In this document: positions 822 to 62,825 of the stretch, one piece after another
Layout: the number at the start of each line of letters is the position of its first letter
Numbering within the stretch: the first letter of the stretch is position 1
Assembly: GCA_017549285.1 (NCBI GenBank)
Contig: JAFYVE010000035.1
Location: 62,001-126,000, forward strand
Length of the DNA stretch: 64,000 nt
Source: Clostridia bacterium
GTDB lineage: Bacteria > Bacillota > Clostridia > Oscillospirales > Acutalibacteraceae
Reading direction: 5' to 3'
Translations under genes and position numbers: made by a program
The notes under the pieces: model-generated
The model's input: only the letters and a program-made list of their open reading frames with translations
Told to the model about the DNA's origin: nothing
Databases searched by the model: none

Positions 822-965
822 ATGGAAAGAATCACAACTCTTGATACTCGTAACCTTTGCGAAAGCGCTCAGAACGGCGGTTGCGGTGAATGCCAGACAT
901 CTTGCCAGTCAGCATGTAAGACAAGCTGCGGTATCGCAAATCAGCAGTGCGAAAACAAGGAATAA
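822..965 (+). CDS. scfA: SCIFF ranthipeptide precursor (six Cys in forty-five)
   Basis: A 47-residue peptide with seven Cys (residues 13, 21, 24, 28, 32, 36, 43) and the family signature around ECQTSCQSACKTSC. SCIFF peptides are near-universal in Clostridia and are converted by their radical SAM partner into thioether-bridged ranthipeptides linked in other clostridia to signalling. Start ATG 822 has GGAG at 809-812. A longer overlapping frame (793-1011) covers the same bases but has no family similarity. The maturase gene follows 67 bases downstream, beyond a hairpin terminator, so precursor and maturase are probably made in unequal amounts. One extra Cys (residue 13) compared with the six of the family name. 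Confidence 0.95.
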   Translation: MERITTLDTRNLCESAQNGGCGECQTSCQSACKTSCGIANQQCENKE

Positions 966-17054: not shown

Positions 17055-17081
17055 AAAAGTTATGAGAGGATGGTTATAAAT

Positions 17082-18740
17082 ATGAAAAGATTTATAATGA
17101 TATTATCTTTTGTTTTTGCGGTTGTTCTCACGGCCTGTATCTGTGGTACTGCCTCTGTTGAAAAATATGAGGTCAATGAAATAGCAAAAGCAGATTACGG
17201 CACATGCGAAGAACACGTTTATCCCAATGATGGTGAATATATAACTATTGAACCGGGACCTTCCTGTTCAAGAAAAGGTGCAAAATACAGAATATGTGCT
17301 GTCTGCGGATATTACGATATCGTTGAACTTCCCAAAGATCCCGATAAGCATTCTCTTGTTTCAAAAGACCTTACATATGAAGATAAGCCCACCTGTACTG
17401 AAGGTGGTGTCGGTTATTATATCTGTCTTGGCTGTAATAAAGCTGCTGAGAGAGTTGAACTTCCTCCCGACCCCGAAGCTCACGTCAAAGACGGTGACTT
17501 TGTTGTTCTAAAAAAAGAAACCTGTACAAACAACGGTACAATGGCTCATAAATGTAAATACTGCAGTGCTTATTTCAATCATCAGTCAATCCCCTCAGAC
17601 CCTATGATGCACGTTTTAACCGATTCCTCAAAATGGGTTGTTACAAAACTTCCAACCTGTGCTCAAGCCGGTTCTGTTGATGGTTACTGTGATGAATGCT
17701 ATAAAGTGTGCGTGACAAGAACAGTTCCCGCAACAGGTAATCATACTCCCGAAGAAGAATGGCTTGTTGTAACAGAGCCTACCTGTTCTTCAGACGGTGT
17801 GAAAGCACATAAGTGTTCGGTATGTAATCAGCCTGTTGATGAAACGCCCATTCCCTCAGAACCCGAAAAACATACTTTTGCTGATAAATATACGATTGAT
17901 GTGCCTGCTACATGCACAACTGAAGGCTCTGAGTCACGTCATTGTCTTTACTGTGATGCAAAAGTTGACGAAAGAGTTGTTTCTGTTGATGCATCGGCTC
18001 ATTCTTACGGTGATGAGTGGATTGTAACACAGGAACCTTCCTGTTCTCAGTCAGGCTATAAGCACAGAGTATGTAAGCTCTGTAATGAAGATTCAATTGC
18101 AACACTCATTCCCAGAACAGAGCATACATATCCCGATGAATATGAGATAATCAAAGAATCGGCAGACGGCACATCCGTTCAGGTAAAATATATCTGTGAA
18201 GTCTGTTCATATAAATATATTACCATAATCACAATCGGTAATAATCCGGGTGAAGGCAATATCGGTGATACCGTTGACCCGATAACAAAGAAATATTATA
18301 TCAAGCCTGTTGAAAAAACCGTTATCAGAGTTGATTATGACAAAATGATTATTTCAAATGTCGTAAAAGAAATGACAGTTGAAGATTTTCTTGACAAATT
18401 CCTCAACGGTAATGTTTTTGTGATTTATAATCCCAAAGACCGTTTTATCAGCGAAGAAGATAACATAGGTACAGGTTGCCGTCTTAATTATGAAACACCT
18501 GACGGTAATGTTACAAACTACTATGTAAGCGTAACGGGTGACTTGGATTCAAACGGTGAAATCACAGCTGCAGATGCAAGAAAAATCCTTAGAATTTCAG
18601 CGAAAATTGATAACGTAAGTGAACCCTATTTAACAGCTGCTGATGTTAATTACGACGGCAAGATAACAGCTTCCGATGCAAGAAAAACACTTCTTGTTGC
18701 TGCAAATCTTGAATTTTTTGACGAAACTTATGAATATTAA
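17082..18740 (+). CDS. Secreted Cys-repeat protein with lipobox and dockerin-like module
   Basis: About 552 residues. The signal sequence ends in VVLTAC, a plausible lipobox with Cys as lipid anchor. Residues ~45-375 are seven tandem units of ~47 residues, each with the pattern PTC....G...KC..C followed by IP and His (for example EPTCSSDGVKAHKCSVCN), plus a degenerate eighth (YICEVC). The paired Cys and regular His suggest metal-binding or disulfide-stabilised beta units. A spacer domain follows, then a dockerin-like pair (GDLDSNGEITAADARKILR, DVNYDGKITASDARKTL). ATG 17082 fits GGATGG as SD; ATG 17070 is too close to AGAGGA. Function unknown. Its end overlaps the next start by 11 bases. Confidence 0.8.
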   Translation: MKRFIMILSFVFAVVLTACICGTASVEKYEVNEIAKADYGTCEEHVYPNDGEYITIEPGPSCSRKGAKYRICAVCGYYDIVELPKDPDKHSLVSKDLTYEDKPTCTEGGVGYYICLGCNKAAERVELPPDPEAHVKDGDFVVLKKETCTNNGTMAHKCKYCSAYFNHQSIPSDPMMHVLTDSSKWVVTKLPTCAQAGSVDGYCDECYKVCVTRTVPATGNHTPEEEWLVVTEPTCSSDGVKAHKCSVCNQPVDETPIPSEPEKHTFADKYTIDVPATCTTEGSESRHCLYCDAKVDERVVSVDASAHSYGDEWIVTQEPSCSQSGYKHRVCKLCNEDSIATLIPRTEHTYPDEYEIIKESADGTSVQVKYICEVCSYKYITIITIGNNPGEGNIGDTVDPITKKYYIKPVEKTVIRVDYDKMIISNVVKEMTVEDFLDKFLNGNVFVIYNPKDRFISEEDNIGTGCRLNYETPDGNVTNYYVSVTGDLDSNGEITAADARKILRISAKIDNVSEPYLTAADVNYDGKITASDARKTLLVAANLEFFDETYEY

Positions 18741-28569: not shown

Positions 28570-28598
28570 ATTATGCATTATTTTAAATTTATTGTCAA
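28570..28598 (-). promoter_or_regulatory. Promoter of the GH36-glycosyltransferase operon
   Basis: On the minus strand, TTGACA (28598-28593), 17-base spacer, CATAAT (28575-28570). The -35 box overlaps the end of the carboxypeptidase gene. Confidence 0.6.
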
Positions 28599-29881
28599 GG
28601 TTGACGCCAGAAATACGAGAAGGCAGTGTTGTAGAGGCTTTTCAGGTCTGAATATCTGCCGTATTTTGAAGGACAGTTGTATACAACAGCAACAAATGTT
28701 TTTGTTTTGCCTGTTTTTTCAATCTGTTTTTTCGCAACAGTTACAAGACACTGACCTGCCTGAGAATGTGAACCTGTCTTCATACCGACCATATAGGGAT
28801 AATATCTGTCAGAATAAGGGTTAATTGTTTCGTTTGAGTTAGAGTATGAATAGCTTCCGCCTGATTCGAAATAAGCTGTAGCCCAGGGCTGAGAAACAAC
28901 ATCTCTTATGAGCTTGAATGAATAAGCCTTTGTTGTCATAATTACCATATCATAGGCTGAAACATAGTGGTTGTAATGGGGGAAGCCATCAGGATTCATA
29001 AAGTGAGAATCGTTCATTCCGAGACTCTTTGCATATGTGTTCATCATTGAAACAAATTTGTTGAGAGCCTGTGAAGCTGACAAATTATAGTTGCCCGTTG
29101 CTTTTCTTGCTGCGTGAACGGCAATTGTGTATGCTGCATCACAGCCTGAGGGAACAAGAAGGCACTTGAGAATTTCTTTGAACTTGATGCGCTGTCCCTG
29201 ATAAAGACCGGAACGACTTGTATTCCAGTGAACAAGATTAAGCTCGCTGCCTACAGTAAGAATATCATCAGGTTTGAGATATTCACATGCAAGGGTCGCT
29301 GTAACAACCTTTGTTGTACTTGCAGGGTGGCAGGGGGAGTGCATATTCTTTCCGTAAAGAATCTTGTCGTTGTCATAGTCATAAAGACAGGCATAACGGG
29401 CATAGCTTGTTGAAAATAAATCGCTTGTTGCAACCGTGAATTTTCTTTCAGCGTCAGTTATGGGCTTCTGTGTTGTGGTTTCTGGAGGTTTTGTTGTAGT
29501 TTCGGGAGTGGGCTTGGGTTCTGCGAAAGGATCAAGCTTTGCCGAAACACGAAGAACATATCTTGCATCGGCTGCAGTAACTTTACCGTCCGAATTGTAG
29601 TCGGCAAGATCTTTTTTCTGTGCGTCAAGTTCTTCAAGCTGTGATGATGCTTTGAGAATGATTCTTGCATCTGCCGCTGTGATTGAACCGCTGAGATTAA
29701 CGTCACCCTTTTCATATGTTTTTTCGGGTTCTTTTGTTGTTGATTCTGTTGAAAGTTCCGTTGTGTTTGTTTCTGCGAGAGTTGTTGTTTCCCGTTCTGT
29801 GGCAAAAACAGGGATATATGTACTTATGAGTATTATTGCAACAATAAAAGCTGCAGTAAATGAACGGAAAAATTTATTCAT
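28595..29881 (-). CDS. D-alanyl-D-alanine carboxypeptidase (S11) with N-terminal dockerin-like module
   Basis: 428 residues. Signal peptide (PVFA cleavage), a Thr/Glu-rich stretch, then a dockerin-like pair at ~58-118 (GDVNLSGSITAADARIILK, DYNSDGKVTAADARYVLR), a TTTKPPETTT linker, and an S11 penicillin-binding-protein domain. The catalytic Ser and Lys are in HPASTTKVVTA, the third motif is GMKTGSHSQAG, but the second motif is PSGCDAA, with Cys where SxN has Asn. No C-terminal membrane helix as in classical DacA, so the dockerin may replace it for surface retention. By family it trims D-Ala from peptidoglycan stem peptides. SD AAAGGAG precedes ATG. Confidence 0.88.
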   Translation of the reverse strand: MNKFFRSFTAAFIVAIILISTYIPVFATERETTTLAETNTTELSTESTTKEPEKTYEKGDVNLSGSITAADARIILKASSQLEELDAQKKDLADYNSDGKVTAADARYVLRVSAKLDPFAEPKPTPETTTKPPETTTQKPITDAERKFTVATSDLFSTSYARYACLYDYDNDKILYGKNMHSPCHPASTTKVVTATLACEYLKPDDILTVGSELNLVHWNTSRSGLYQGQRIKFKEILKCLLVPSGCDAAYTIAVHAARKATGNYNLSASQALNKFVSMMNTYAKSLGMNDSHFMNPDGFPHYNHYVSAYDMVIMTTKAYSFKLIRDVVSQPWATAYFESGGSYSYSNSNETINPYSDRYYPYMVGMKTGSHSQAGQCLVTVAKKQIEKTGKTKTFVAVVYNCPSKYGRYSDLKSLYNTAFSYFWRQP

Positions 29882-49908: not shown

Positions 49909-49959
49909 TTGTAAGAACTTTGTAAGAAGTTTTGTGGTATTATGATATTATTGTAAGAA
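49909..49959. repeat. TTGTAAGAA direct repeats upstream of the two-component genes
   Basis: TTGTAAGAA occurs at 49909-49917, 49920-49928 and 49951-49959 (steps of 11 and 31 bases, about one and three helical turns) around the candidate -10 TGGTATTAT (49936-49943... TATTAT at 49938-49943). Looks like a regulator binding array. Confidence 0.5.
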
Positions 49960-49976
49960 ATAAAAGGGGTAAAAGG

Positions 49977-51818
49977 ATGTTTAAGCAAAAGAAGATAAAT
50001 AATAAAGAAGGCTTTATATTTGCTTCGGTGATACTGTTTTTCGTGCTTTCCTGCATATTACTTGTCAATGCGGTTCTTAATAACTCGCAGGCAGACTGGG
50101 CAATTGTACCTGACATAAGACTTGTCGGTGAATACAAAATCGGGGACGGTGAATGGAAGCCTATAGTTGAAGGGGAGCATATATCTTCCACAAAAGGCGA
50201 CGTCAGGCTAAAGGGCGTGCTTGAAATCTGCGACCCTGAAACAAATGATTTTTACGGGAAACTTCCCGATGGTTCACTTGTGACTTTTACATTCAACCAT
50301 ATAAATCTTGCTCTGACCGAAAATAATCAGATAACCGAAGTATATGACATAGAAAATCCCGATATCGGTGAAGATGCCTGCGGATATAACAGTATGGTAG
50401 CTCAATACAGCGGTGAAGACGGATATTTTGAAGGGGTGATACGTAACTATCACAGCTTCGGAAATGAAACTGCTGTTGATGAGTTCCTTTCTTCAATGAA
50501 GCTTTATGCAAGTGATTATTCTGAAAAAACCGCTCTGCGTTCAGGTAATACTGAAAGAGTGGTTGCAATAATGATTATAATTTTTGCACTTCTTATTCTG
50601 GGTATTTCAATTTTTTCTTATATGCTTGATAAAAATAATTTCAGAAATTATCTGTTCAGCGGATTTCTGATACTTTCAGCAGGCATTTTCTTCCTTTTTA
50701 CCTCGGAAGCTATATATTTATGGTCTGACCTGATGATTGTAAATACTATGCTCAGAGGGATTTCCGCAATGTCTTATCTTTTGTTTGGTTTTATGCTTAT
50801 ACAGGGACTGTTTTCAGGCAAAAAAGAACTTGCGGCACACATAATCACCATAATATACGCACTTTTTATATGTGTAAATATTATTGTTCCGATGTTCACA
50901 AAAATTTATTTTTACGATATGTTAGGAATATGGACAATCGGTGCTGCTCTTGTTTCTGTGATTTTTACAGTATCAGCTTTGCATTCGGCAATAAAGGCAT
51001 CGGGCAGACAAAAGCTTCCGTATATTTTTATAAGCCTCGGACTGATTCTGTTTTTAGTTGATATTGCAGCTGTTTATTTCGGATTCTGGCAAACAGGTCT
51101 CGCATCCAAGATTTATTTTCTCATAGGATTTATGATTTCGGCTGTTGTTTCCTTGCGTATTGTACCTAAAAATATTAAAGCTGCAAAAAAGGCAGAACAG
51201 CTTGAAAAAGAAAAAATCAGACTCGATGCAGAGCTTTCAAGAAGCCGTATTTCAACGCTTATGAGTCAGATTCGTCCTCATTTTATTTATAACACTCTCG
51301 GCAGCATTGAACAGCTCTGTGAACTTGACCCTCCGAAAGCGGCAAAGCTTGTTAATGATTTTTCAAAATATCTAAGAGGTAATTTCGGTGAGCTGGATAA
51401 TCAGGGACTTATCCGTGTTTCAAAAGAGCTTAAACATACTGAATATTATATCGGTATTGAAAAGGTGCGTTTCCCCGATATTGAATTCATTACAGAAATG
51501 ACCTGCTGTGATTTCAGCATCCCTGCACTCACCATTCAGCCGATAGTTGAAAATGCCGTCAAGCACGGTATTCTCAGAAGAGAAGAGGGCGGCACGGTCA
51601 GGGTAAAAATTTATGAAACCGACAGCAGTTATTTTATTACTGTAAAGGATAACGGTGTCGGCTTCGATGTGACCGAGCTTGAGAGTAAGAATCATATCGG
51701 ATTAAGAAATATAAAAAGCAGACTTGAGGCAATGTGCGGAGGTATTCTCCACATTGAAAGCATATCGGGTGTAGGTACAAAGATAACAGTTGAAATTCCG
51801 AAGGAGACAGACAGATGA
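49977..51818 (+). CDS. LytS/YehU-type sensor histidine kinase
   Basis: About 613 residues. One N-terminal helix, a ~170-residue extracytoplasmic sensor domain, seven membrane helices (about 195-395), a coiled coil (KKAEQLEKEKIRLDAEL), and the His_kinase domain with phosphoacceptor His in SQIRPHFIYNTLGSIEQL (about residue 436), then an ATPase domain (TIQPIVENAVKHGI, KDNGVGFD, GIGLRN-like HIGLRNIKSRLE). The layout is that of 7TMR-DISM sensor kinases. ATG 49977 has AAGGGG 7 bases upstream. The ligand is unknown. It overlaps its response regulator by 4 bases. Confidence 0.9.
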   Translation: MFKQKKINNKEGFIFASVILFFVLSCILLVNAVLNNSQADWAIVPDIRLVGEYKIGDGEWKPIVEGEHISSTKGDVRLKGVLEICDPETNDFYGKLPDGSLVTFTFNHINLALTENNQITEVYDIENPDIGEDACGYNSMVAQYSGEDGYFEGVIRNYHSFGNETAVDEFLSSMKLYASDYSEKTALRSGNTERVVAIMIIIFALLILGISIFSYMLDKNNFRNYLFSGFLILSAGIFFLFTSEAIYLWSDLMIVNTMLRGISAMSYLLFGFMLIQGLFSGKKELAAHIITIIYALFICVNIIVPMFTKIYFYDMLGIWTIGAALVSVIFTVSALHSAIKASGRQKLPYIFISLGLILFLVDIAAVYFGFWQTGLASKIYFLIGFMISAVVSLRIVPKNIKAAKKAEQLEKEKIRLDAELSRSRISTLMSQIRPHFIYNTLGSIEQLCELDPPKAAKLVNDFSKYLRGNFGELDNQGLIRVSKELKHTEYYIGIEKVRFPDIEFITEMTCCDFSIPALTIQPIVENAVKHGILRREEGGTVRVKIYETDSSYFITVKDNGVGFDVTELESKNHIGLRNIKSRLEAMCGGILHIESISGVGTKITVEIPKETDR

Positions 51819-52597
51819 TTGCAATTGCAATAGATGATGAACAACTTATGCTGTATGCGCTTGTGAAGGCTGTGAAGGCATCGGATGATATAGACGAGGT
51901 TGCAGGTTTTTCAAACTGTGATGAGGCACTTGACTGGGTTGAAATCAATACTCCCGATGTGGCTTTTCTCGATATCAATATGCGTGGTATCAACGGACTC
52001 GGTCTTGCAGAAAAAATAACAGCACTTCATCCTGAATGTAAGATTGTTTTCTGTACAGGTTATGAGGAATATGCAGTTTCAGCATTTAAAATTCATGCAT
52101 CAGGTTATCTGCTCAAACCGATTTCAGCTGAGGATGTGCAGAAAGAAATTGATGTTATAAAGAACAGAAAAACAGAAAAAGGCATACTTAAAGCAAAATG
52201 CTTCGGCAACTTTGATATTTTATGTAACGGTGAAAAACTCACTTTCAGAAGAAGCAAAAGCAAGGAGATGCTGGCATTTCTCATTGACCGTAACGGTGCT
52301 GATGTTTCTTCAAAGGAAATAGCCGCAGTACTCTGGGAAGACGGCACAAAGGAAAATAACAGAAATTATTTTCATCAGGTGCTGTTTGACGTGCGTCAGA
52401 CTCTTGAAAAAGTCGGTGCGGAAGATGTGTTGAAAAAGAACGGTTATCTTTACTCTGTTGACACGGAAAAAATATCCTGTGACTATTATTCTTATCTGAA
52501 AAACGGTCAGCCGGAGTTTCAGGGTGAATATATGACACAATACAGCTGGGCTGATGAAACCTGCGGTTTCCTCTGGAGAAAAAGCAATAACAAATAG
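51815..52597 (+). CDS. Response regulator with SARP/OmpR-like winged-helix output domain
   Basis: 260 residues. Receiver domain with IDDE, the phospho-acceptor Asp53 in VAFLDINMRG, Thr of VFCTGYEEYAV and Lys of GYLLKPIS. The output domain (from ~130) has the winged-helix pattern ILCNGEKLTFRRSKSKEMLAFL and SSKEIAAVLWEDG seen in SARP-like regulators rather than LytTR, which is less usual for a LytS-type partner. ATGA overlap with the kinase gene. Expected to act on the operon's own upstream repeats or on surface genes such as the convergent operon. Confidence 0.9.
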   Translation: MIAIAIDDEQLMLYALVKAVKASDDIDEVAGFSNCDEALDWVEINTPDVAFLDINMRGINGLGLAEKITALHPECKIVFCTGYEEYAVSAFKIHASGYLLKPISAEDVQKEIDVIKNRKTEKGILKAKCFGNFDILCNGEKLTFRRSKSKEMLAFLIDRNGADVSSKEIAAVLWEDGTKENNRNYFHQVLFDVRQTLEKVGAEDVLKKNGYLYSVDTEKISCDYYSYLKNGQPEFQGEYMTQYSWADETCGFLWRKSNNK

Positions 52598-52674: not shown

Positions 52675-52941
52675 TTATTCATCAAGAAGATTATAACTTC
52701 TCATACCGTCAAGGAACTCTCTGATGTCAGCAACAGCCTGCTCCTGAGAAACTTCAAAATTATCAGTAACTGCTTTGAGAATATCATCAAAACTGACGTC
52801 ATTTTCAAGACACTGCCAGATAACAAGACTTACGGAATTGAGCATAATCATATTGTTGAATTCAATTGCAGTATTGCCGACAGGCAGCACTACCGTGTCA
52901 TCAAGAATCTGACGTGTAATAAATTCGCCTCGGATTTTCAT
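52675..52941 (-). CDS. PqqD-like peptide-binding (RRE) protein
   Basis: 88 residues. Matches the stand-alone PqqD fold: FITRQILDDTVVLPVG, AIEFNNMIMLNSVSLVIWQCLE, and a helical VSQEQAVADIREFLDGMRSYNLLD end. In RiPP pathways such proteins bind the leader peptide and present it to a radical SAM enzyme. GGAGGAT precedes the start, which shares a base with the radical SAM stop (TGATG). Last gene of the five-gene operon. Confidence 0.88.
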   Translation of the reverse strand: MKIRGEFITRQILDDTVVLPVGNTAIEFNNMIMLNSVSLVIWQCLENDVSFDDILKAVTDNFEVSQEQAVADIREFLDGMRSYNLLDE

Positions 52942-54065
52942 CAGTTATCCTCCTTGTGAGTAATTTCATTTATCAGTCTGTTTCTTTCGGTATAAAAGGA
53001 GCTTACGTATCTGCAACGGTATTCGGGAGCTTTATCAAAACATCCGTTTTCCGAAATAACCATTGCCGCACAGGCTCTGCATTCTTTTTTCAATCTGCAT
53101 TCCGCACAATCGGCAGGAAGCCTTATCTTATCGGTCATGTCTTTTGTGTATGCCCATAATTCATCAAAACTGCCCTCAAAAGCATTTTTTTCTGCGTTAC
53201 GGGGAAACATACCGCAAGGAAGAATCTGTCCGTCCCAGGTAATCCAGAAACTGCATTTTCCTGCTCTGCATTTTATCCCTTCACCTGTTTTCCCGCAATT
53301 ATCATCGTTGTCGGCAGGAATAACGGCATCCTTTGAGAAAGAGAGGAATTTATCCTTCCCGTTGATAAGATAATCAATATAAGCCGTGTAATATGCCGCT
53401 TTTTCGGGTGAAAAACGGAATTCATTGTTTGTTTCTGTACTTTTTTTATTTGACGGGAACATATATGCCGTCGGCTGAATAACTATTTCATTACGTTTTG
53501 CGTAGCTTATTATTTCAGGTAAATCATCTGCATTGTAAGGCGTAACGCTGCAATTGATTTTTATGTTGATGCCGTTTTCTTTAAGAAGCATTATTGCTTT
53601 GTCTGCCTTTGAAAAACCGTCAGGACATCGGCAGAGTCTTTTGTATGTATCATTGTCTGCACCGTAAAGTGTTACATTGATTCTTGCAGGCGGCACTTTT
53701 TTCAGCCAGCTGACCGTTTCTTCATCAATCATTGTTCCGTTTGTATTGATTGTCAGAATAAAGCCCATTCTGTGAAGCTCTTCAATGATTGTTCTGATTT
53801 CAGGATGAGTAAACGGTTCACCGCCTGTTATAAGCAGAAAAAGCATTCCTGCATCTTTGCATCGCCGTGCAAGATTCAGCCATTCTTCTGCTGATTTTAA
53901 TTCACCTCTTGCCGTCTGTTCTTCTTTAGACAGTCTGACATAGCACATTGAGCAATTCATATTGCACAGGGGAGTCAGTTCAAAGGTACCGCTTATCGGT
54001 GAGCCAGATGCCGATGCTTTCTGATATAAATATTCAACCATTGCAGCTTCAACCGGCATATTCAT
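52941..54065 (-). CDS. Radical SAM/SPASM peptide maturase
   Basis: 374 residues. [4Fe-4S] motif CNMNCSMC (Cys 34, 38, 41), then LLITGGEPFTHP. The SPASM region supplies Cys in CGKTGEGIKCRAGKCSF, ILPCGM, ADCAECRLKKECRACAAM and YRCRYVS, enough for two auxiliary clusters. It resembles sactipeptide/ranthipeptide and related peptide maturases. GGAGGTG lies before the ATG, which overlaps the kinase-like stop in TGATG. Placed directly between an HprK-like and a PqqD gene, its likely substrate is the 82-residue peptide at 54946-55194. Confidence 0.92.
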   Translation of the reverse strand: MNMPVEAAMVEYLYQKASASGSPISGTFELTPLCNMNCSMCYVRLSKEEQTARGELKSAEEWLNLARRCKDAGMLFLLITGGEPFTHPEIRTIIEELHRMGFILTINTNGTMIDEETVSWLKKVPPARINVTLYGADNDTYKRLCRCPDGFSKADKAIMLLKENGINIKINCSVTPYNADDLPEIISYAKRNEIVIQPTAYMFPSNKKSTETNNEFRFSPEKAAYYTAYIDYLINGKDKFLSFSKDAVIPADNDDNCGKTGEGIKCRAGKCSFWITWDGQILPCGMFPRNAEKNAFEGSFDELWAYTKDMTDKIRLPADCAECRLKKECRACAAMVISENGCFDKAPEYRCRYVSSFYTERNRLINEITHKEDN

Positions 54066-54925
54066 CAGTAAACACCTCCGTCAATCAATGTCTTATATAA
54101 TAATTCTGCGGCACTCCTGTCAGGCAGGCAGGATAATTTATATACCGGTGTGTGTTCAATAACACAGAGCAGCAGCCGTGATGCTTTGTCAACACAACTT
54201 TTTTCCCATTGATGAACCGATATCTGAGGGTAAAGGTGCATAAATGCTTCGGAAGGACTCAATAACGAAATTGAGTTTTCTCTGCCTTGTGACAAAACGA
54301 TTATTGCCCCCGTTTGAGAAGAACGGTTATTGCATATATCGGATGTGCCTGAAAACGGTACTCCGTGTGCAGAACAACAGCCGTTTTCAACAGCTACGGC
54401 AGCTCTGTCATCATTGATAATTTCTGCACCGAAGCAGTCTTTCCATAAACGTGCCTGAGTTGATTTTCCCGTTTCGGAAGGAGCTGAAAACAGGAGAGCC
54501 TTTTCTTTGTGTATAATAAAAGAACAATGAAGCATCAGTCTGTTGCAGTCGAGTAACAGACTTTCAAAACCCATTTTATGAAAAACAGCGGTTGTGCTGT
54601 CAAACATACTTTCTGCCACACTCCGATAACTGAGAATAACTCTGTTATTGTTATAAAACTCAGCCACGGCAAAGGGAACCGAACCCGGATTGTGTGAGAA
54701 AAAAATTCTTTTGCCTGAAGCCGTCATTTCATAATGCGAAACTCCGTTTGTATAATACGGAATACCTGCATCAGGCAATTTTTCTGTTTTTTTCAGTATT
54801 ATTTCATATCCGATATTTTCAGGTGCATCGGATAAAAGAAACGGGCTCATTTTGTCCGATATTGCTATGTGTGTGTCTGCTTCAAGTCTGACTGAAACGC
54901 CTGCAACACAAAAATACCGCAACAA
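54065..54925 (-). CDS. HPr-kinase-like protein of the peptide operon
   Basis: About 286 residues. P-loop SAPSETGKSTQARLW (about residues 147-160), followed by AEIINDDRAAV (Walker-B-like acidic pair) and GVPFSGTSD; this is the HprK C-terminal fold seen in RiPP-associated kinases such as those of paeninodin-type lasso clusters. The frame opens with TTG 54949 overlapping the peptide stop (TTGA), but TTG 54925 has AAGGAG 9 bases upstream and is preferred. Expected role: phosphorylate a peptide or use nucleotide to support modification. Activity is inferred. Confidence 0.82.
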   Translation of the reverse strand: MLRYFCVAGVSVRLEADTHIAISDKMSPFLLSDAPENIGYEIILKKTEKLPDAGIPYYTNGVSHYEMTASGKRIFFSHNPGSVPFAVAEFYNNNRVILSYRSVAESMFDSTTAVFHKMGFESLLLDCNRLMLHCSFIIHKEKALLFSAPSETGKSTQARLWKDCFGAEIINDDRAAVAVENGCCSAHGVPFSGTSDICNNRSSQTGAIIVLSQGRENSISLLSPSEAFMHLYPQISVHQWEKSCVDKASRLLLCVIEHTPVYKLSCLPDRSAAELLYKTLIDGGVY

Positions 54926-54945
54926 ATGAACCCACTCCTTAAAAA

Positions 54946-55194
54946 TCAAGATCTGAACATATAGAACCCGTCACCCGGATTGTTATAACAGGCATAGCCG
55001 AAACTGTCACCGTCTTCCATACAAACCGGACCGGGGACAAAGATAATCAGTCCGCCAAGATCCCATCCGCATTTCGGTGCATCATTCAGATTTACCTGAT
55101 CCTGAGGAATTCCGTCCCAGCAATCACGTGCCGAAGATTGAGCGAGAGATAAGGAACCAACAGCCAACATCGGTTTTTTATATGAACTTTTCAT
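54946..55194 (-). CDS. Candidate RiPP precursor peptide (82 residues)
   Basis: 82 residues. The N-terminus has YKKPMLAVG (Tyr5, Pro8, Leu10, Gly13), close to the YxxPxLxxxG leader motif that RRE domains bind. The C-terminal ~58 residues have four Cys (25, 42, 58, 69), two near Trp (DCWDG, KCGWD), many Gly/Asp/Asn, and end in Ser. It has no signal peptide or double-Gly cleavage site. GGGAGG precedes the ATG, which overlaps the stop of the giant surface-protein gene (TGATG). Placement beside HprK-like, radical SAM and PqqD genes makes it the probable substrate. Confidence 0.75.
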   Translation of the reverse strand: MKSSYKKPMLAVGSLSLAQSSARDCWDGIPQDQVNLNDAPKCGWDLGGLIIFVPGPVCMEDGDSFGYACYNNPGDGFYMFRS

Positions 55195-58100
55195 CAGTAT
55201 TCGCCTCCCGATAATGTGCTGAAAATATTTGTGATAAATTCAATTATCTTTCTGAAAAATCCTATCAGTTTTTCAATGAATGATAATGAATTTACATCTT
55301 CATTATCTGTTCCGTTGTTCTCCTGACCGTCTGAATTGTCCGTCGAGGGTTCCTTTTCTGGGATGTCTGTATCCTCTTCAGGGATTTCAGGTTCAGCAGG
55401 TCTCATTCTCAGCGCAAATGCTGACATAAACATAACTGCTTCTTCTGCAACCGCAGGAAGAATTCCGCAATCCTCATCAACAGTATTGTAAACATTTGTA
55501 ACCCTTAATTTTGTAAGAGAAAGAACAGAATTATTGTCAGATGCGTTTTCTATAACGATATATCCGTCAATCGGAGTAATCTCATAGTACATATCAGTTG
55601 AATGGTTAAGCACAATCGTTGTCGGTTCTGCCTTGCTGATTCCGCAGACATTTGCTTTTACCGTTGAACCGTCAATGCTCTTCATTCCGACATAATAATT
55701 GTTTACAGAATCAACTTTAAGAACAATTGACTGTGAAGGGCTGAGATATATTTCATTTTTAGGACCGTAGGATTCAAAAGTTCCGATTTCATACGTATGT
55801 GTGCCGTCAGCTACGATGTCGTCACCGCTTGTCTGACCGTCCTTGATTGAGTCAATGAAAACGGCACCTGCTTTTCCGTCATTACTGTCATCCGTATCGG
55901 TATTGAAATCACCGTAATCAAGAAGAATATCACGGATTTCTATGAATCTGGCGTTAAGTTCTTTACCGTAACCTTCTTTTACCTGCTCTGAGGCTTCGGT
56001 CTGGTCTGTGTTGAGCGGATTATATACTCTTACACCGTCAAGATAATATTCAAATCTCTTGTAGCCTGTTGCAACATCGGATGAAGCGGAGGCAAGAAGT
56101 TTTACCTTGTAAGTGCCGTATTCAAGAGAGCTGAATGATATTGTGGGAATGTGATAATAATCACCCGAAACAGACAGGTTGTCCATTATAATATTCTGAA
56201 CACCGGGAACGGGCTGTTCTTTAGATATTACGTTGCCGTTATCATCTGTTGTTCTGACAATTTTCTTTATCATTGCAACAACAAGACCGGTTTCGCTGTT
56301 TGTTCTTGTGTAAACGTCAACACCTGTTCCCGTAAATGTGAATTCTACACTTGCACCGTATTTACCGTCAAGTCCGGTACCGTGGGCGCTTGAGTCTGAA
56401 TATCCGTTATCGTCACCGACCGAATCAATCCAGCCGTGAACATCACCGAATTCGGGGCTTTCAAGATGTTCGGGTGTTTCGGTATTCTTATCGGCATCAT
56501 TCTGATATCCCGAATAAACAGGAGTCCATGTTCCGCTGTAAGTGAAACCGTCGTAACCGTTCACATCGGTATCGGGTGTTGTTTCAAAGGTGTCTTCATA
56601 ATAAATGTTGTTTGCGGGGATTATGGTGACTTTTGTCCACAGATTTCCGTTTGTGTTTGCATCCTGTGTCAGGACTGTTTCATTTTCCGTGTCACCAAAA
56701 ATATAGAACTGTTCGGGTTTGCCCCAGTTCAATGAGGTGGGAGTATATGTTACAACACCGTCATTGATTGTTATATTGCCGTATTCTGCATTTAAAAGAC
56801 TCGATGTTGAAGGATTGTTTTCATCAAACCAATTCATACCGTCAGAGATTTCAGTATCAATATGAACTGCGCCGATTTTTTCGTTTCCTTCAATTTTGTC
56901 AAAGAACCAGCCTGAAAGTTCAAAAGGTTTTGCGTAGTCAACGACATATGTTCTTTCAACAAAAATGGTTGAAGGCTGATCAAAGGGAAGAAGAAGTTCT
57001 CTGTTTCCGTTTGCATCGGCAGGAAGCCATAAGCCTGACACTTCGTTGTTGGTAAGTGAAGAACGTCCCCAGTTTACAGAGTCACGTGCTTCAATGCAGG
57101 TGATTTCAACATAGAGTTTATATCCTTCGGGATGCATATCGCTGATAAACCAGTTTTCAAAGTCATAACCCGTGATATCAACTGTATGAGGGTGATAATC
57201 CGAGCTGTCCGGATCAGTTGTATTCGTTGCATCGTAGTTGAAAACCTGAATGTATGAAACTGTTTTTTCAATACCGTCCGGTGTATTGTCAAGAAGAACC
57301 TTTTCCTGAGATTCGGTCCTGCCTTCTGAAAGGTCAAGGCTTGCAACTTTTTCAAGAGCAGGAGTCCCGTCGGCATTCAGCTTCCAGTCTATATCTTGTG
57401 TAATTGCATTGTATGTTCCCGGCTGTCTGTAGGCTGTGATAACCGTTTTGGATGAAAGCTCAAGACCTGTTCCCACAATATCACGGAGAATAGTATCCTC
57501 GTGAAGGATAATCTCTGTTGTAATTTTTGTTGTGATTTCCTTCATGACATAGGAGAAGTAGTCAACAAGCTCCTCAACGCTGTCCGTTGTTGAATAATAA
57601 CCTGAATTGGTTGTAGCCTGATAACCGCCCGAGTTACCGCTGATAGTATAATTACCGATTTTACTGCTTCGTCCGACAGTTGCATTAAGCTCTGTTGTAA
57701 CAAGAGTATTTTTTGAACCGTCATTATAGTACCAGCCTGTATATGTACGGTTTGAGCTTGTGAATGTGCCGTAGTTTAATTCATAATAGTTTGTTGTTGA
57801 GTTCCACCAGCTTGAAGTTGTGACTTTGACATAATATTTCTTGCCGTCATTTATGTTTGTTCCCTGAGCGGCATCATAATATGAAGCGGTTTTATATACA
57901 TCAGTCATCTGTTTTGCTGTAGGATAATTTGAAGATACGGCATTCATGTATATGCTTACATCACTTGTTGAAGAAACACCGTTGCTGGGATAAAGACCGA
58001 TTGTGTAGGAATATGCATTGTGTGTATTCTTGCTTGTGTAAGCCTGATTGATTGCTTCATTCGCAACATTTGAATCAAACGTACCGATACCGGGAAGACC

Positions 58101-61100
58101 GTCAGTAAACATAATCATAATTCTGACTCTGCCTTCAGCGGGGTCAAGAGGATTTGCGGCAAAGACTTTGTTAGCCATTTCAATACCGTACTGAACATAA
58201 GTACCGCCGTTTGAACCCAGCCCGTTTGAAGCTTTGATAAGACCGGGGTTGATACTTCCCGAACCGTTGTCACCGACTGAAACAGGAACAAGTGCATCTT
58301 TATAAACATTAAGATGCGGACCGTTGTTTTTTGTTTCCGTTCTTATATAAAGTCCTGAATGACCATCAGTACAGGTATAGTTGTTGCCTGTACCGTAAGC
58401 GTGAATCTGTCTTTCATTCATTCCTTCACGGTGTGTCCAGACGTCTTCGTGATACGTAAAGAATTCGTCTGATGAATAAAGCAGTTTTTCTTCACCGTAA
58501 AGCCAGAGACCGCTCAGATTTCTTGACAGCGGAACAAAAGTGCCTTTGACATTTCCGTAAACCTGAGTTCCGTAAAGATGCTCGATTCGTGCTGTATTTT
58601 CATCAATAAGATGATAATAAGTATCGTGATGCATAAGAAGCAGATACTCGTCTCCGCTTTTTACGTAATATGTTCCGTTGGCTGTGGGATTCTCATTTGT
58701 TGATGTGTAATTGAAACCTGTAACGGGGTAGGGATGGAAATCGCCGTTTGAATCAAAAACACCCGTATTGACCCATTCACTTGTGTTACCGCCCGCAATA
58801 GGATGTGTGGATGTGTTTGTGCTTGTGGGGGCTTCTGTTGCGTTACCTGCATAACCCACCATTGCAATTCTGTGGTCAACTTTATTCTCTCTGCCGTGGT
58901 CTGCAATAAGTGATATGAAGTTTTCAACAGCACTCTCAAGTTCATCAAGGTATCCGCTGTTGATAATTGAACCTGACTGGTCAAGAACAAGCACGATATC
59001 AAGTGGTGTATTCTGCATTATCTGAGTAGTGATGGGATTATCCTTTGTGTAAGTCTCCATCGTAATGGTATATGTACCGTTATTCTCAAGAGTTGCAGTT
59101 TTGTTAAGTGAAAGATTGCTTTCAACCTGTTCTGTATAACCGTCACTTCCGTCAGGAATATAATAAATTGTAATCATATTCTTGTTGTTGTCACGGTTTA
59201 CCGTCAGGTCGGGTGCCTCGTTATTACTGTAATATTCACCGTTAATGCTGACACCTTCATATTTGTATCCGAGAATTTCAATATGCTCGTTGTGAGGATG
59301 AATCGTCTGACCTTCTGTTACGCCGCTTACAACCTTTGCACCGTGGAGAACATTGTTTGTGTTAAGTTCAAGATAACGCACGGTATAACAGATTCCGTCA
59401 AGCTTTTCCCATTCAGCCGTAAGTGTCACATCTTCGGCAAGAGCTGCGGCAATTGTGATATAGCCGTCATTGTTAATGAATACACCGACATTATTGCTTG
59501 TCCATCCTTTGAAGACATATCCGGGTCTGTACGGGAATGCAATGATTCTGTCATCGAAACTCCATGTATGGCTGTATGAGTAATAATGACCGCCTTTGTT
59601 GTCATCCGTTACATAATTTTCCATACCGAGAACAGTTTCTTCTTCGTCAAGTCCCATATCGAACGTTATTTTGTAGGTTTTGGGTTCAATAACTGCGGTG
59701 AGTGCACCCGAAGCTGTGTCAGATGCCGCATCCCACCATGCAGTTGACTTATATCTGATTGTATAGGGAAGTGATGAATTATTATCGTATTCCGTACCGT
59801 CCTGCGAATAGACACCCTCAATTGTGCCGTAAAGTTTTTCTATACTCATACGGTATTCATATCTGGTACCGTTTGTGTGCCACTTCCAAACATCGTAACC
59901 TTCCTGTCCCTGACCGTCTGAACCTATTGAAATCATAGAACCGTAGGGAGGAACAAGATGCTGGCTGATGATTCTGAATTCTGTATCATCCTGAGAACCG
60001 AGGTCACGGTAAGTAATCTGTGCAAGAATATCTGTGGGACGGTATTTTTCATTGATTCTGCTTGTATCAACAACACTCATTTGATAATAACTTTCGGGAG
60101 AAAGCTCAAGATAAGCATCCACAGTTGCACCGTGAGCATCGCCGAGAATTATATCAAATTCATCGGGAGCGAAAATGCCGTCTTTGTTGTTATCATATCC
60201 GCATGAATAGTTCAGAACAAGAATATAGATGCTGTATGATGCACCGTCATCGGGAATTGTGAATTCATATGTGCCTGTTGCAAGGTCTGATTCATCATAA
60301 TTACCGAATGTTACAATACTTTGTGCGAAGTCGTTATATACACCGTCTGTGAATTTCTTTAAGACTACCATAACGGATTCTGCACGTGAATCTGCAGGGA
60401 CGGATGCAGTTTCATCCCCCAGACGGTAAGAGCCGTTTATGGTTATTGTTCCGGAAACGCTCAGAGGATTGCTCCATTTTGCAGTATAAATAATATCTTC
60501 ATTAAGGAGCTGACCTGCTTTGTTTTCTGCATTAAGGCTGTTTTCCTGCCAGCCGAAGAATGTTTTTCCTTCTTCATCGGGTACAGGGGAGTAGTTATAA
60601 AGATTGGGATATCTGTACTGATTCGTAAGTGTAACGTTTTTTTTACCGTTGATTGTACCTTCTGTCGCATCAAAAACAACATCAAAACCCTCAGCACTTA
60701 TTGTAATAAGAGGTACACCGTGCTGCATTTCATTTTCAAAATATCCGCCGTAAAGGTCTGTATTGCTTTCTGAAGGATATGCGGGAACTCTGCCTTCACC
60801 TTCAATGCCGACACTTGCTTTGAAAACAGACGAGCCGTCTGCTTTGTATGTAATGTTATCATCGGTTGATGCAGCTACGATTGAGCCGTCGGGAAGTATA
60901 AATGAAGTGATTTCAACACGGTATTCATAGGCATGGTCACCTTCTGTTGACCATGTTTTCCATACGGGGAAAAAGCCTGCGCCTTCACCGTCAGTAAGAT
61001 TTACCGTAACGGGGAATCCGTCACCGTCCTGCTGTGTGATTGTATGCCAGCCGAGTTCATTTGATGCATTGTAACCCCAATAAGTAACTTTTACGTTTAC

Positions 61101-62825
61101 TGCAACGGGATGAAGATCTTTGTGTGTGTTTTCATCAACCCTGACATTGAAATGAAAATCGAAATTATTAGGTGCATAAATGTATTCGATATAAATTGAT
61201 TTTCCGTCATCGCTTTTTGTCAATGTAAGCTCATAACCTGATTTTACCGTTGCTACATTGTATTCAGCCTGCGGCATATCTGTAAATGAATATGTGTATG
61301 TGGAACAGTTATCCTGCAGTTTATATCCGGGATAAGTATCGTCAAGAGTGATATTTCCGTTTTCAACAGGCATATTGACTCCGTTTTCAACGGTAAGAAG
61401 CTGAAAATTGATTAAATCCTTATTTGAATCATTATCTGCACCGCCCGAAGTACCCTCGTGATTGATTGAAATCTGAACGGTGATTGTATTCGTTTCTTCC
61501 CATATTGCAGTAAGCTCTGCGGGGTCCTTGATTGCTTCTGTCAGAAGGTCGCCTGCATTGTATATATTCCCTTCACTGTCTGTCCATCCTTTGAAGGTAT
61601 ATCCGTTACGTACAGGAATTTTATCTGTTGCAAAAACAACAGAATTTGCATGAAAACATTCTGTCCATGCAGGTGTTGATGCATCATCACCTGTATTGTA
61701 TGTCACGCTGTAATTCTGAAGTGTTGTGCTGCCGCTCTGGTTGTATATGATAACCTGATGTCCCGCAACCTGTTCATAATTACCTTCTGTATCTTTAAAA
61801 TAGACATGATATGTTCCGTTTTTGTGAACATCATAAGTATAAATACCGTCTGTTGTTTCTGAAAGCTCAAAAAATGTTGTTCCGTCTTCGCTTATGCAGA
61901 TTGCAGATACATTACCGTTGATTTTATTGATGTCTGTGGGTGTGCCGTCAAGATTGGTTGTTATTGTTACCGAATATTTGATCTGTGTGTACCATTTTGC
62001 ATATAACGTTACATTATGATATTCGACTGTCAGGGTGTCACCGGGCATATAATCAATACCTGACCCGTCAGCAGCAGTATTCCAGCACTTGAAGAGATAT
62101 GTGTCACCGTCTTCAACCTTTTTCAGGTCAGCAGAAGGACTTTTTACTGTATGTGTTTTTCCTGTTTCAAGCTCTTCAATATCTGAGGGGACAGAGCCGA
62201 CAGTTGCACCGTTTGCATCATAACCGATTGTATATTCAGGATTTTCAAGAGTAACTTTTTTGAAAAGATAAACGTGAGAACCGTTGTAGTGAGATATATT
62301 ACTGCCGTTTACACCGTAGCTGTATAATGTAGCCCATTGATTTTCGCTGTTTACGCCGAGAAACTGCAGATTTGTATTTGAGCCGCCTTCAAGGTGAATA
62401 CCATATCTGCCTTCACCGAGATTTGTGAAATTAAGAGTGGCGGGGTTTGTTTCATATCTTGTGTATTGCGAAATGTTTAGGTAGTAGTTGTGTGTGCTTA
62501 CAGTACCTTTTGATGAACCGCTGAATGTCCATGTTACGTATGAATCGTTTTCAAAGGCATCAATTGAATTTGCGCCTTGACCCGATTTGATTGTAATGCT
62601 CTGACTTGATGCTTCCCAGGGACGGGTTGCATCCATTTTCAGAGCCATGGCAGCACCGCTTGAAGCAGAAGCGATAATATACTCAGTCCCTGCATCTATT
62701 CCGTCTGTATCAAGAACAAACTGATATCCGTTTTCAGCTGCAGATGCTGACAGCGGAACAGCCCCTACCGACAGACCGGTCCACAGTACAACAAAACATA
62801 AAAATAGTGATATAATCCTTTTCAT
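55194..62825 (-). CDS. Giant secreted VWA/InlB-repeat surface protein (2,543 residues)
   Basis: Signal peptide (1-29, SASA-AE), a jelly-roll-like start (~30-195), at least four InlB-type beta repeats near 195-280, 365-445, 720-790 and 1060-1145 (for example YTFKGWTDSEGN...LTAIWEE), a MucBP-like segment, and a VWA domain at about 1273-1640 with an intact MIDAS start (DIVLVLDQSGS) but an insertion of ~200 residues before FTDGLPG. The rest is beta-rich. There is no LPXTG, dockerin or SLH; the end is a Pro/Glu/Asp stretch followed by an amphipathic helix (SFIEKLIGFFRKIIEFITNI). Likely an adhesin or surface scaffold. AAGGAAGG precedes ATG. First gene of the peptide operon. Confidence 0.88.
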   Translation of the reverse strand: MKRIISLFLCFVVLWTGLSVGAVPLSASAAENGYQFVLDTDGIDAGTEYIIASASSGAAMALKMDATRPWEASSQSITIKSGQGANSIDAFENDSYVTWTFSGSSKGTVSTHNYYLNISQYTRYETNPATLNFTNLGEGRYGIHLEGGSNTNLQFLGVNSENQWATLYSYGVNGSNISHYNGSHVYLFKKVTLENPEYTIGYDANGATVGSVPSDIEELETGKTHTVKSPSADLKKVEDGDTYLFKCWNTAADGSGIDYMPGDTLTVEYHNVTLYAKWYTQIKYSVTITTNLDGTPTDINKINGNVSAICISEDGTTFFELSETTDGIYTYDVHKNGTYHVYFKDTEGNYEQVAGHQVIIYNQSGSTTLQNYSVTYNTGDDASTPAWTECFHANSVVFATDKIPVRNGYTFKGWTDSEGNIYNAGDLLTEAIKDPAELTAIWEETNTITVQISINHEGTSGGADNDSNKDLINFQLLTVENGVNMPVENGNITLDDTYPGYKLQDNCSTYTYSFTDMPQAEYNVATVKSGYELTLTKSDDGKSIYIEYIYAPNNFDFHFNVRVDENTHKDLHPVAVNVKVTYWGYNASNELGWHTITQQDGDGFPVTVNLTDGEGAGFFPVWKTWSTEGDHAYEYRVEITSFILPDGSIVAASTDDNITYKADGSSVFKASVGIEGEGRVPAYPSESNTDLYGGYFENEMQHGVPLITISAEGFDVVFDATEGTINGKKNVTLTNQYRYPNLYNYSPVPDEEGKTFFGWQENSLNAENKAGQLLNEDIIYTAKWSNPLSVSGTITINGSYRLGDETASVPADSRAESVMVVLKKFTDGVYNDFAQSIVTFGNYDESDLATGTYEFTIPDDGASYSIYILVLNYSCGYDNNKDGIFAPDEFDIILGDAHGATVDAYLELSPESYYQMSVVDTSRINEKYRPTDILAQITYRDLGSQDDTEFRIISQHLVPPYGSMISIGSDGQGQEGYDVWKWHTNGTRYEYRMSIEKLYGTIEGVYSQDGTEYDNNSSLPYTIRYKSTAWWDAASDTASGALTAVIEPKTYKITFDMGLDEEETVLGMENYVTDDNKGGHYYSYSHTWSFDDRIIAFPYRPGYVFKGWTSNNVGVFINNDGYITIAAALAEDVTLTAEWEKLDGICYTVRYLELNTNNVLHGAKVVSGVTEGQTIHPHNEHIEILGYKYEGVSINGEYYSNNEAPDLTVNRDNNKNMITIYYIPDGSDGYTEQVESNLSLNKTATLENNGTYTITMETYTKDNPITTQIMQNTPLDIVLVLDQSGSIINSGYLDELESAVENFISLIADHGRENKVDHRIAMVGYAGNATEAPTSTNTSTHPIAGGNTSEWVNTGVFDSNGDFHPYPVTGFNYTSTNENPTANGTYYVKSGDEYLLLMHHDTYYHLIDENTARIEHLYGTQVYGNVKGTFVPLSRNLSGLWLYGEEKLLYSSDEFFTYHEDVWTHREGMNERQIHAYGTGNNYTCTDGHSGLYIRTETKNNGPHLNVYKDALVPVSVGDNGSGSINPGLIKASNGLGSNGGTYVQYGIEMANKVFAANPLDPAEGRVRIMIMFTDGLPGIGTFDSNVANEAINQAYTSKNTHNAYSYTIGLYPSNGVSSTSDVSIYMNAVSSNYPTAKQMTDVYKTASYYDAAQGTNINDGKKYYVKVTTSSWWNSTTNYYELNYGTFTSSNRTYTGWYYNDGSKNTLVTTELNATVGRSSKIGNYTISGNSGGYQATTNSGYYSTTDSVEELVDYFSYVMKEITTKITTEIILHEDTILRDIVGTGLELSSKTVITAYRQPGTYNAITQDIDWKLNADGTPALEKVASLDLSEGRTESQEKVLLDNTPDGIEKTVSYIQVFNYDATNTTDPDSSDYHPHTVDITGYDFENWFISDMHPEGYKLYVEITCIEARDSVNWGRSSLTNNEVSGLWLPADANGNRELLLPFDQPSTIFVERTYVVDYAKPFELSGWFFDKIEGNEKIGAVHIDTEISDGMNWFDENNPSTSSLLNAEYGNITINDGVVTYTPTSLNWGKPEQFYIFGDTENETVLTQDANTNGNLWTKVTIIPANNIYYEDTFETTPDTDVNGYDGFTYSGTWTPVYSGYQNDADKNTETPEHLESPEFGDVHGWIDSVGDDNGYSDSSAHGTGLDGKYGASVEFTFTGTGVDVYTRTNSETGLVVAMIKKIVRTTDDNGNVISKEQPVPGVQNIIMDNLSVSGDYYHIPTISFSSLEYGTYKVKLLASASSDVATGYKRFEYYLDGVRVYNPLNTDQTEASEQVKEGYGKELNARFIEIRDILLDYGDFNTDTDDSNDGKAGAVFIDSIKDGQTSGDDIVADGTHTYEIGTFESYGPKNEIYLSPSQSIVLKVDSVNNYYVGMKSIDGSTVKANVCGISKAEPTTIVLNHSTDMYYEITPIDGYIVIENASDNNSVLSLTKLRVTNVYNTVDEDCGILPAVAEEAVMFMSAFALRMRPAEPEIPEEDTDIPEKEPSTDNSDGQENNGTDNEDVNSLSFIEKLIGFFRKIIEFITNIFSTLSGGEY

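Follow-up and report, generated by a model that had tools for sequence, protein, structure and literature searches.

A probable RiPP-type maturation cassette linked to giant surface proteins with a common module in Clostridia

Introduction

Most work on ribosomally synthesised and post-translationally modified peptides (RiPPs) concerns their roles as antibiotics, signals or cofactors, and SPASM-type radical S-adenosylmethionine (SAM) enzymes are known among them as maturases of the sactipeptide, ranthipeptide and streptide types. In the sortase/LPxTG and PEP-CTERM/exosortase systems, a C-terminal region common to otherwise different exported proteins is served by dedicated machinery. Here we describe a five-gene cassette in a 64,000-nucleotide stretch of DNA from a Clostridia bacterium (Acutalibacteraceae; GenBank assembly GCA_017549285.1, contig JAFYVE010000035.1, positions 62,001 to 126,000 of the forward strand; referred to as the window), encoding a giant exported protein, a short precursor-like peptide, an HprK-like kinase, a radical SAM/SPASM enzyme and a PqqD-family protein. 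An earlier interpretation made from the letters alone (referred to as the sequence-only reading) had singled out this cassette as RiPP machinery joined to a surface protein. Across genomes, the pairing of peptide and giant recurs far beyond chance and is a property of the family, and we lean towards reading the genes as a RiPP-type maturation cassette that supplies the giant cell-surface protein with a dedicated partner.

Among described systems, the paeninodin-like lasso clusters, with their split B1/PqqD, likewise combine a PqqD-type RiPP recognition element (RRE), an HprK-like kinase, a YxxP leader and a precursor ending in Ser. The HPr kinase homologues of lasso clusters phosphorylate a C-terminal Ser and depend little on the remaining peptide (PMC8498205). 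Unlike these clusters, the window cassette includes neither a lasso cyclase nor a B2 protease (a check of its five genes, other loci not being searched), and it contains instead a SPASM radical SAM enzyme and is linked to a giant surface protein that bears the common module. The clusters of linear polyphosphorylated peptides (LPP; Popov et al. 2026, PMC13381572) also have a discrete RRE, an HprK-like kinase, a YxxP leader and no cyclase, and the FES or FET that follows the YxxP leader in 25 of 77 of our peptides is part of the LPP motif reported there. However, the SpI peptidase, NTP transferase and MsbA-like transporter of LPP clusters are not among the five window genes (other loci were not searched for them), LPP phosphorylation falls on core Ser3, and the paper makes no mention of 'radical SAM'. 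The window cassette shares the RRE/HprK logic of the lasso and LPP clusters, and adds to it a SPASM enzyme and a surface partner.

HprK-like, PqqD-like and radical SAM/SPASM proteins also occur together in SynChlorMet cassettes, with which the sequence-only reading had compared the gene set. Membership in this group was rejected, as the window proteins scored far under the NCBIfam cut-offs of every Scm model (ScmC, ScmD, ScmE and ScmF at 18.7/125, 22.4/100, 75.9/400 and 65.2/400 bits, respectively). With sactipeptide, ranthipeptide and streptide-type systems the cassette has in common a SPASM radical SAM enzyme (with PDB matches 5v1q and SkfB 6efn) and a Cys-bearing precursor, but it differs in its discrete PqqD, kinase and surface partner. 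As in sortase and PEP-CTERM sorting, different exported giants share one region towards the C-terminus; unlike there, an LPxTG-like motif was present in the last 60 residues of only 2 of 78 giants, and each giant has its partner, a small peptide, encoded next to it. Two general RiPP features are present, namely a leader-bearing short precursor near a modifying enzyme and a PqqD RRE above cut-off that predicts leader binding, while a leader peptidase or dedicated exporter, which not every RiPP has, was not found among the five window genes. The coupling of peptide and giant is not named in the literature searched, a search whose coverage left out most subscription papers.

Results

Architecture of the window operon

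All five open reading frames (ORFs) are encoded on the minus strand, and the overlapping operon proposed by the sequence-only reading was confirmed with unchanged coordinates as a set of tightly coupled, real genes. One-base TGATG overlaps, each preceded by a purine-rich ribosome-binding site, join the giant to the peptide, the HprK-like gene to the radical SAM gene, and the latter to the PqqD gene, so that translation of the peptide is apparently coupled to that of the giant through its TGATG junction. The giant (55194..62825; 2543 aa) has a signal-like N-terminus as judged by eye, List_Bact/InlB-type repeats and a weak VWA region at residues 1276–1332. Its two VWA matches (25.7 bits with a cut-off of 27, and 21.1 bits with a cut-off of 23.8) fall slightly under the Pfam cut-offs, and the TIGR02543 repeat of NCBIfam is matched at E 9.6e-13. 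Further along are a conserved module at residues 1959–2417 (55575..56951) and, at about residues 2512–2543 (55197..55292), a hydrophobic, amphipathic-looking tail that is common among the giants without being universal, and that ends here in ...FSTLSGGEY.

The precursor-like peptide (54946..55194; 82 aa) carries a YKKP leader motif of the YxxP type (55171..55182; its meaning follows PMC13381572), four Cys residues, a CY near the C-terminus and a terminal Ser, the codon of which (54949..54951) specifies the proposed phospho-acceptor. Although the ORF of the HprK-like kinase (54065..54949) mechanically starts at TTG 54949, an AAGGAG lies between this codon and two further in-frame TTG codons, 54925 and 54922. 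Translation therefore probably begins at one of the latter two, in which case the peptide and HprK genes would not truly overlap by four bases. The radical SAM/SPASM enzyme (52941..54065; 374 aa) contains a CNMNCSMC motif and a Cys-rich C-terminal region, with 5v1q as its best PDB match (E 3e-12), and the presumed leader-binding RRE is a PqqD-family protein (52675..52941; 88 aa) with TbiB1 as its best PDB match (E 0.012).

A peptide family with an invariant C-terminal Ser

A search with the window peptide alone retrieved only itself, in 1 of 250 genomes of the family. The peptide family instead emerged from the neighbours of HprK homologues: in 40 stretches examined, mostly around HprK-like genes, a cassette recurred that consists of a giant, a peptide, a lipoprotein-like or membrane-anchored protein, HprK, a radical SAM/SPASM enzyme and PqqD. 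Fourteen ORFs picked by eye among these neighbours were aligned with the window peptide, leaving out chance-like frames and the leader-bearing ORFs of loci L061, L065 and L073 (which lack a module giant and of which none ends in Ser). In these 15 peptides Y5, C25, C69 and S82 are invariant, and the shared layout comprises a Y-x-x-P-type leader, a Cys at the apparent leader end, further Cys residues, a C(Y/K) near the end and the terminal Ser, with the window peptide being a divergent member. The resulting profile matched in 28 of 398 family genomes and in 3 of 391 class-wide genomes, the window's own included.

Subsequently considered pairs of peptide and module-bearing giant numbered 78, distinct by peptide sequence, with L045 as the single row that is not intact; the 77 intact peptides form 74 groups at 80% identity. 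A Yxx[PAS] leader is present in 71 and four Cys in 61 of them, and their cores are acidic, with a median net charge of –6; core sequences are diverse among the aligned peptides. The terminal Ser is found in all 77, preceded by an aromatic residue at position –3 in 73 (F in 67, Y in 5 and W in 1). Two peptides missed by the profile, downstream of giants in L052 and L048, end in Ser as well, and among the first 45 peptide rows 43 do so, the remaining two (L040 and L045) being broken. In L045 (7956-8093), a stop-truncated family peptide lies beside an intact giant, as a decayed copy.

The window genome (56 contigs, 88% complete, with the window in contig C32) holds four giant–peptide pairs: that of the window, two in tandem on contig C39 and one on C52, where the enzymes are not nearby. 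The gene order on C39 is HprK, radical SAM, giant, peptide, giant, peptide, lipoprotein-like, radical SAM and PqqD. This tandem operon (L111, contig positions 4000-23900, with L036) combines two pairs of differing subtype with two radical SAM genes that likewise differ in subtype. The C-terminal Ser, the lipoprotein-like gene of other cassettes and the three further pairs of this genome had all escaped the sequence-only reading.

One module behind different front domains

A module of about 450 residues towards the C-terminus was present in all 26 giants located directly upstream of a peptide. The profile built from these giants matched each of them at E 1.3e-73 or better, and a blastp search with the module region of the window giant matched all 25 other peptide-linked giants; note that the module was defined from peptide-linked giants. 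The sequence ahead of the module is far more variable, being without detectable homology in 66% of ordered pairs among 75 giants and reaching more than half mutual coverage in 15%, as opposed to 93% for the module itself among 78 giants. Of 18 giants searched with Pfam (E<=0.001), six carry PA14, five GH2 domains, three VWA and three List_Bact repeats, while GH88, a ricin-type lectin, SpaA and a calcineurin-like phosphoesterase occur in one giant each. The other three giants of the window genome likewise differ: one has GH2 and PA14, one a weak VWA, and one a phosphoesterase with Big_2, VWA and a GBS104-like Ig domain. The sequence-only reading had coupled the peptide to an adhesin-like VWA protein; the coupling to a giant stands, but VWA is not its constant partner, since the module occurs behind different domains instead.

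No PDB relative of the module was found, and among 15 members no NCBIfam family matched more than one and Pfam Big_9 (Ig) matched only two, weakly, so that the module appears to belong to no convincing Pfam or NCBIfam family. No Cys is invariant in its alignments, and in the larger of these just one Ser and one Thr are. Two sortases are encoded in the window genome. A phage or plasmid origin of the module was rejected, as it was without match in the phage, plasmid and viral-contig collections searched. Dockerin-like repeats were seen by eye in four other exported proteins of the window (3896-4771, 11880-14342, 17070-18740 and 28595-29881), which suggests cohesin-based assemblies in the same organism.

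Pairing of module and peptide across genomes

A module-first scan of a species-level collection (84,980 species) yielded 256 relatives; the analysis covers the best 80 of them, together with their flanks. Several of these loci lie on the same contigs as loci already examined, and there is partial overlap between the seeds of the peptide profile, the giants that define the module and the 80 loci. Four loci ended at a contig edge and one lacked an intact module frame, leaving 75 evaluable loci. In 67 of these a peptide is encoded at most 1.6 kb downstream of the module giant, and in 61 the gap does not exceed 50 bp, in support of the earlier claim that the surface protein belongs to the unit. 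The six wider gaps comprise three with cassette genes in between (about 1.1 kb), one with a split giant frame, and two of 95 and 195 bp; of the remaining evaluable loci, two have a peptide elsewhere in the locus and six have none. Most of the 80 records are named as Clostridia, Oscillospiraceae or Lachnospiraceae, whereas Clostridium, Christensenellaceae and unspecified Bacillota contribute single ones; among them are the isolates Lachnoclostridium sp. An76, Clostridium celatum DSM 1785 and Pseudoflavonifractor phocaeensis An569.

The sequence-only reading had expected homologues of the peptide near radical SAM and PqqD genes, and this was indeed observed: within 8 kb downstream on the same strand, the 67 loci encode radical SAM in 45, PqqD in 37, HprK in 49 and the lipoprotein-like protein in 40 cases (47, 40, 50 and 45, respectively, anywhere in the locus). 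All four partners are present in 31 loci and none in 13, of which eight have more than 5 kb of downstream sequence and five have less. As some giant–peptide pairs have no enzymes nearby, the enzymes can probably act in trans.

In the 250 family genomes (which the 398-genome draw is taken to contain, because the genome labels coincide), the module matched in 23, of which 20 at E<1e-20, and the peptide in 20; 18 genomes have both the peptide and the stringent module match (hypergeometric 2.9e-23). The two module-only genomes are G018, which carries a peptide missed by the profile, and G060, which has only a fragment near a contig end, and the two peptide-only genomes are G056, with a broken peptide at a contig end, and G136, with a weak match. 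Distances between peptides correlate with those between modules (rank Mantel 0.69, n 78, p 0.0005); for the 48 pairs with both enzymes nearby the correlation is 0.66, falling to 0.43 given HprK and to 0.29 given radical SAM. Moreover, the nearest module carries the same peptide subtype in 78 of 78 cases, including genomes that hold both subtypes.

These patterns suggest that the peptide acts jointly with the giant at the surface and is not a free antibiotic. Were it an ordinary RiPP natural product, an antimicrobial or signal exported to act on other cells with the giant as a co-travelling competition or adhesion protein, then the RiPP-typical enzyme set, the diverse cores and the four pairs in one genome would be readily understood. 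Nevertheless, the peptide stays by the giant where the enzymes are absent, one module is common to the giants whatever their front domains, and the gene strings of the loci revealed no recurring gene beyond the lipoprotein-like one (unlabelled neighbours not having been searched with transporter, immunity or peptidase models), and we regard a natural product as unlikely. PqqD and SPASM proteins also serve cofactor pathways such as those of PQQ and mycofactocin, and together with the lack of a known export route this would fit a peptide-derived cytosolic cofactor or signal that is used inside the cell and linked to the giant by operon hitch-hiking or shared regulation. However, neither the enzyme-less pairs nor the phyletic match of module and peptide is expected from hitch-hiking, and no recurring client enzyme was noticed among the neighbours (the unlabelled ones not being classified), making such a cofactor very unlikely.

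The maturation enzymes and their probable substrate

The RiPP-type gene set put forward by the sequence-only reading is supported by profile searches. The window PqqD protein passes the Pfam cut-off (E 5.9e-14), its best NCBIfam models being the lasso PqqD ones, all under cut-off; the radical SAM protein passes as Radical_SAM (E 2.2e-25), with its SPASM domain slightly under cut-off (20.3 bits, cut-off 21.5). In the cassette of a relative, HprK and radical SAM are fused in a single 661-aa ORF (L058:14666-16651, minus strand). The conserved lipoprotein-like or membrane-anchored protein of about 240 aa (e.g. L050:8332-9075), of which the one member tested had no Pfam match, often lies between peptide and HprK and is absent from the window cassette.

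The radical SAM protein also weakly matched anaerobic sulfatase-maturating enzymes (E 1e-6). This similarity, together with the giant–peptide pairing itself, would agree with a scenario in which the giant itself is the substrate of radical SAM enzyme and kinase, much as sulfatases are of their maturing enzymes, with the peptide recruiting both as a chaperone or adaptor. We consider this quite unlikely, given that the YxxP leader, conserved Cys and terminal Ser sit on the peptide, that the module has no invariant Cys (and one Ser and one Thr in the larger alignment), and that precursors ending in Ser also occur beside the enzymes where no module giant is present.

As the sequence-only reading had noted, neither a transporter nor a leader peptidase is among the five window genes. 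Export in trans by a C39 peptidase was considered and discarded, as the genome, 88% complete, yielded no match to this family (other exporters and peptidases were not searched). A defence role was likewise set aside, as among the four short proteins only the radical SAM enzyme matches PADLOC, and only viperin models. Loci such as L055, L068 and L070, in which an HprK-like gene is accompanied by PqqD and/or small peptidase-like and ABC-like genes, resemble the LPP clusters of PMC13381572.

The HprK-like kinase and its distribution

The window HprK-like protein has no Pfam match and only weak NCBIfam ones, with ScmC as the best. Nevertheless, a 12-member profile of the HprK-like proteins matched the solved HPr kinases 1jb1 and 2qmh (E 8e-4), and the His, GxGKS (P-loop) and Asp-Arg stretches align with HPr kinases, so that the kinase motifs are intact. 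HprK-like genes occur in 118 of 250 family genomes and in all 28 genomes with a peptide match.

Ser-ending peptides also occur away from giant loci. Beside HprK and radical SAM, but without a module giant, lie five W-x-x-P precursor-like ORFs of some length (in L041, L044 and L066, and two in L064) that end in Ser, as does a weak family member in L133, beside radical SAM and HprK with no giant adjoining. In an HprK tree of 47 rows (a random 30 of 74 cassette rows, plus 17 others), the HprKs of L041, L044, L064 and L066 cluster together with support, and those of L065 and L073 lie outside this group, suggesting that the Ser follows the kinase type. The four loci probably represent phospho-RiPP clusters that include a radical SAM enzyme and form a sister group. 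A stand-alone HprK-like gene on contig C49 of the window genome (L038:9534-10415) groups with the cassette HprKs of L117 and L208 and with the stand-alone L059 (100/99 support), so that it may serve in trans, possibly as the kinase for the pair on C52.

Other genes of the window

A histidine kinase gene (49932-51818, plus strand) and a response regulator gene (51815-52597, plus strand), overlapping by four bases, converge on the cassette and could regulate it. No known RNA family reached the gathering score between 49 and 64 kb. At the other end of the window, a 47-aa Cys-rich peptide (822-965, plus strand) directly precedes a PqqD-radical SAM-SPASM protein (1033-2412, plus strand), which resemble a SCIFF precursor and its maturase, a known RiPP pair.

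Discussion

In the mechanism that we propose, PqqD would bind the Y-x-x-P leader and so bring the precursor to the radical SAM/SPASM enzyme for modification or cross-linking of the Cys-bearing core, and the HprK-like kinase, following the lasso-peptide precedent, would phosphorylate the conserved C-terminal Ser. The product would then act at the module of the giant, in all likelihood extracellularly and, in cassettes that have it, jointly with the lipoprotein-like protein, and could mature, cap, tether or display giants with very different working domains.

A number of observations weigh against this reading, or limit what can be drawn from the data in its favour. Modification, export and binding are predictions from the genes, and for the exit of the peptide the cassette contains neither transporter nor leader peptidase, nor did the genome yield a C39 match. 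Six evaluable module loci have no recognisable peptide, and in G107, one of the 18 genomes with both, the peptide match is weak, has an internal stop and lies on a contig other than that of the module. Correlated distances fit matched partners but may also reflect common inheritance, and peptide distances correlate equally strongly with those of the radical SAM enzyme (0.70, and 0.40 given the module). The subtype match rests on few cases, as the second subtype (ending in YCKF...S) accounts for 5 of 78 pairs. Because the seeds of the peptide profile came from HprK neighbours, the co-occurrence with HprK is partly ascertained, and the cassette HprKs are not supported as one clade (7 changes versus a shuffled mean of 14). 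Furthermore, given the Ser-ending peptides beside enzymes without a module giant, the Ser alone is no argument for the link to the giant. Finally, a terminal Ser is missing from the peptides of L065 and L073, where HprK and radical SAM occur together, and from that of L061, a locus with HprK, and the LPP kinase uses core Ser3 (PMC13381572), so that the presence of HprK by itself does not imply a C-terminal site.

The same Ser3 precedent speaks for an alternative in which the last Ser is conserved for docking or C-terminal ligation, the F-x-S end being a conceivable docking motif, and the kinase modifies another residue or molecule. Yet the lasso homologues, as PMC8498205 reports, act on a C-terminal Ser largely irrespective of the rest of the peptide, and the unrelated-looking ORFs of L041, L044, L064 and L066 also end in Ser, whereas those of L065 and L073, with HprKs elsewhere in the tree, do not. 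Such another role of the Ser therefore seems somewhat unlikely to us, and phosphorylation of the last Ser is the likeliest reading.

If the product is indeed a dedicated partner of the giant, its boldest form would be one of surface-protein maturation or anchoring, in which every exported giant, through its module, is served by a peptide of its own, and this RiPP, cross-linked by the radical SAM enzyme and phosphorylated on its last Ser, is a structural part or tether of the surface protein. We put this forward tentatively, on account of the layout of a common module with variable cargo and the scarcity of LPxTG-like motifs.

The gene of a RiPP-type precursor is here tied to those of modular giant exoproteins among gut Clostridia, and the adhesin-like and glycoside-hydrolase-bearing giants among these may touch mucus, fibre or other cells. 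Should the peptide prove to be a structural partner of the module, it would represent a new way to build a bacterial surface, and would provide a first functional handle on these huge, unannotated proteins.

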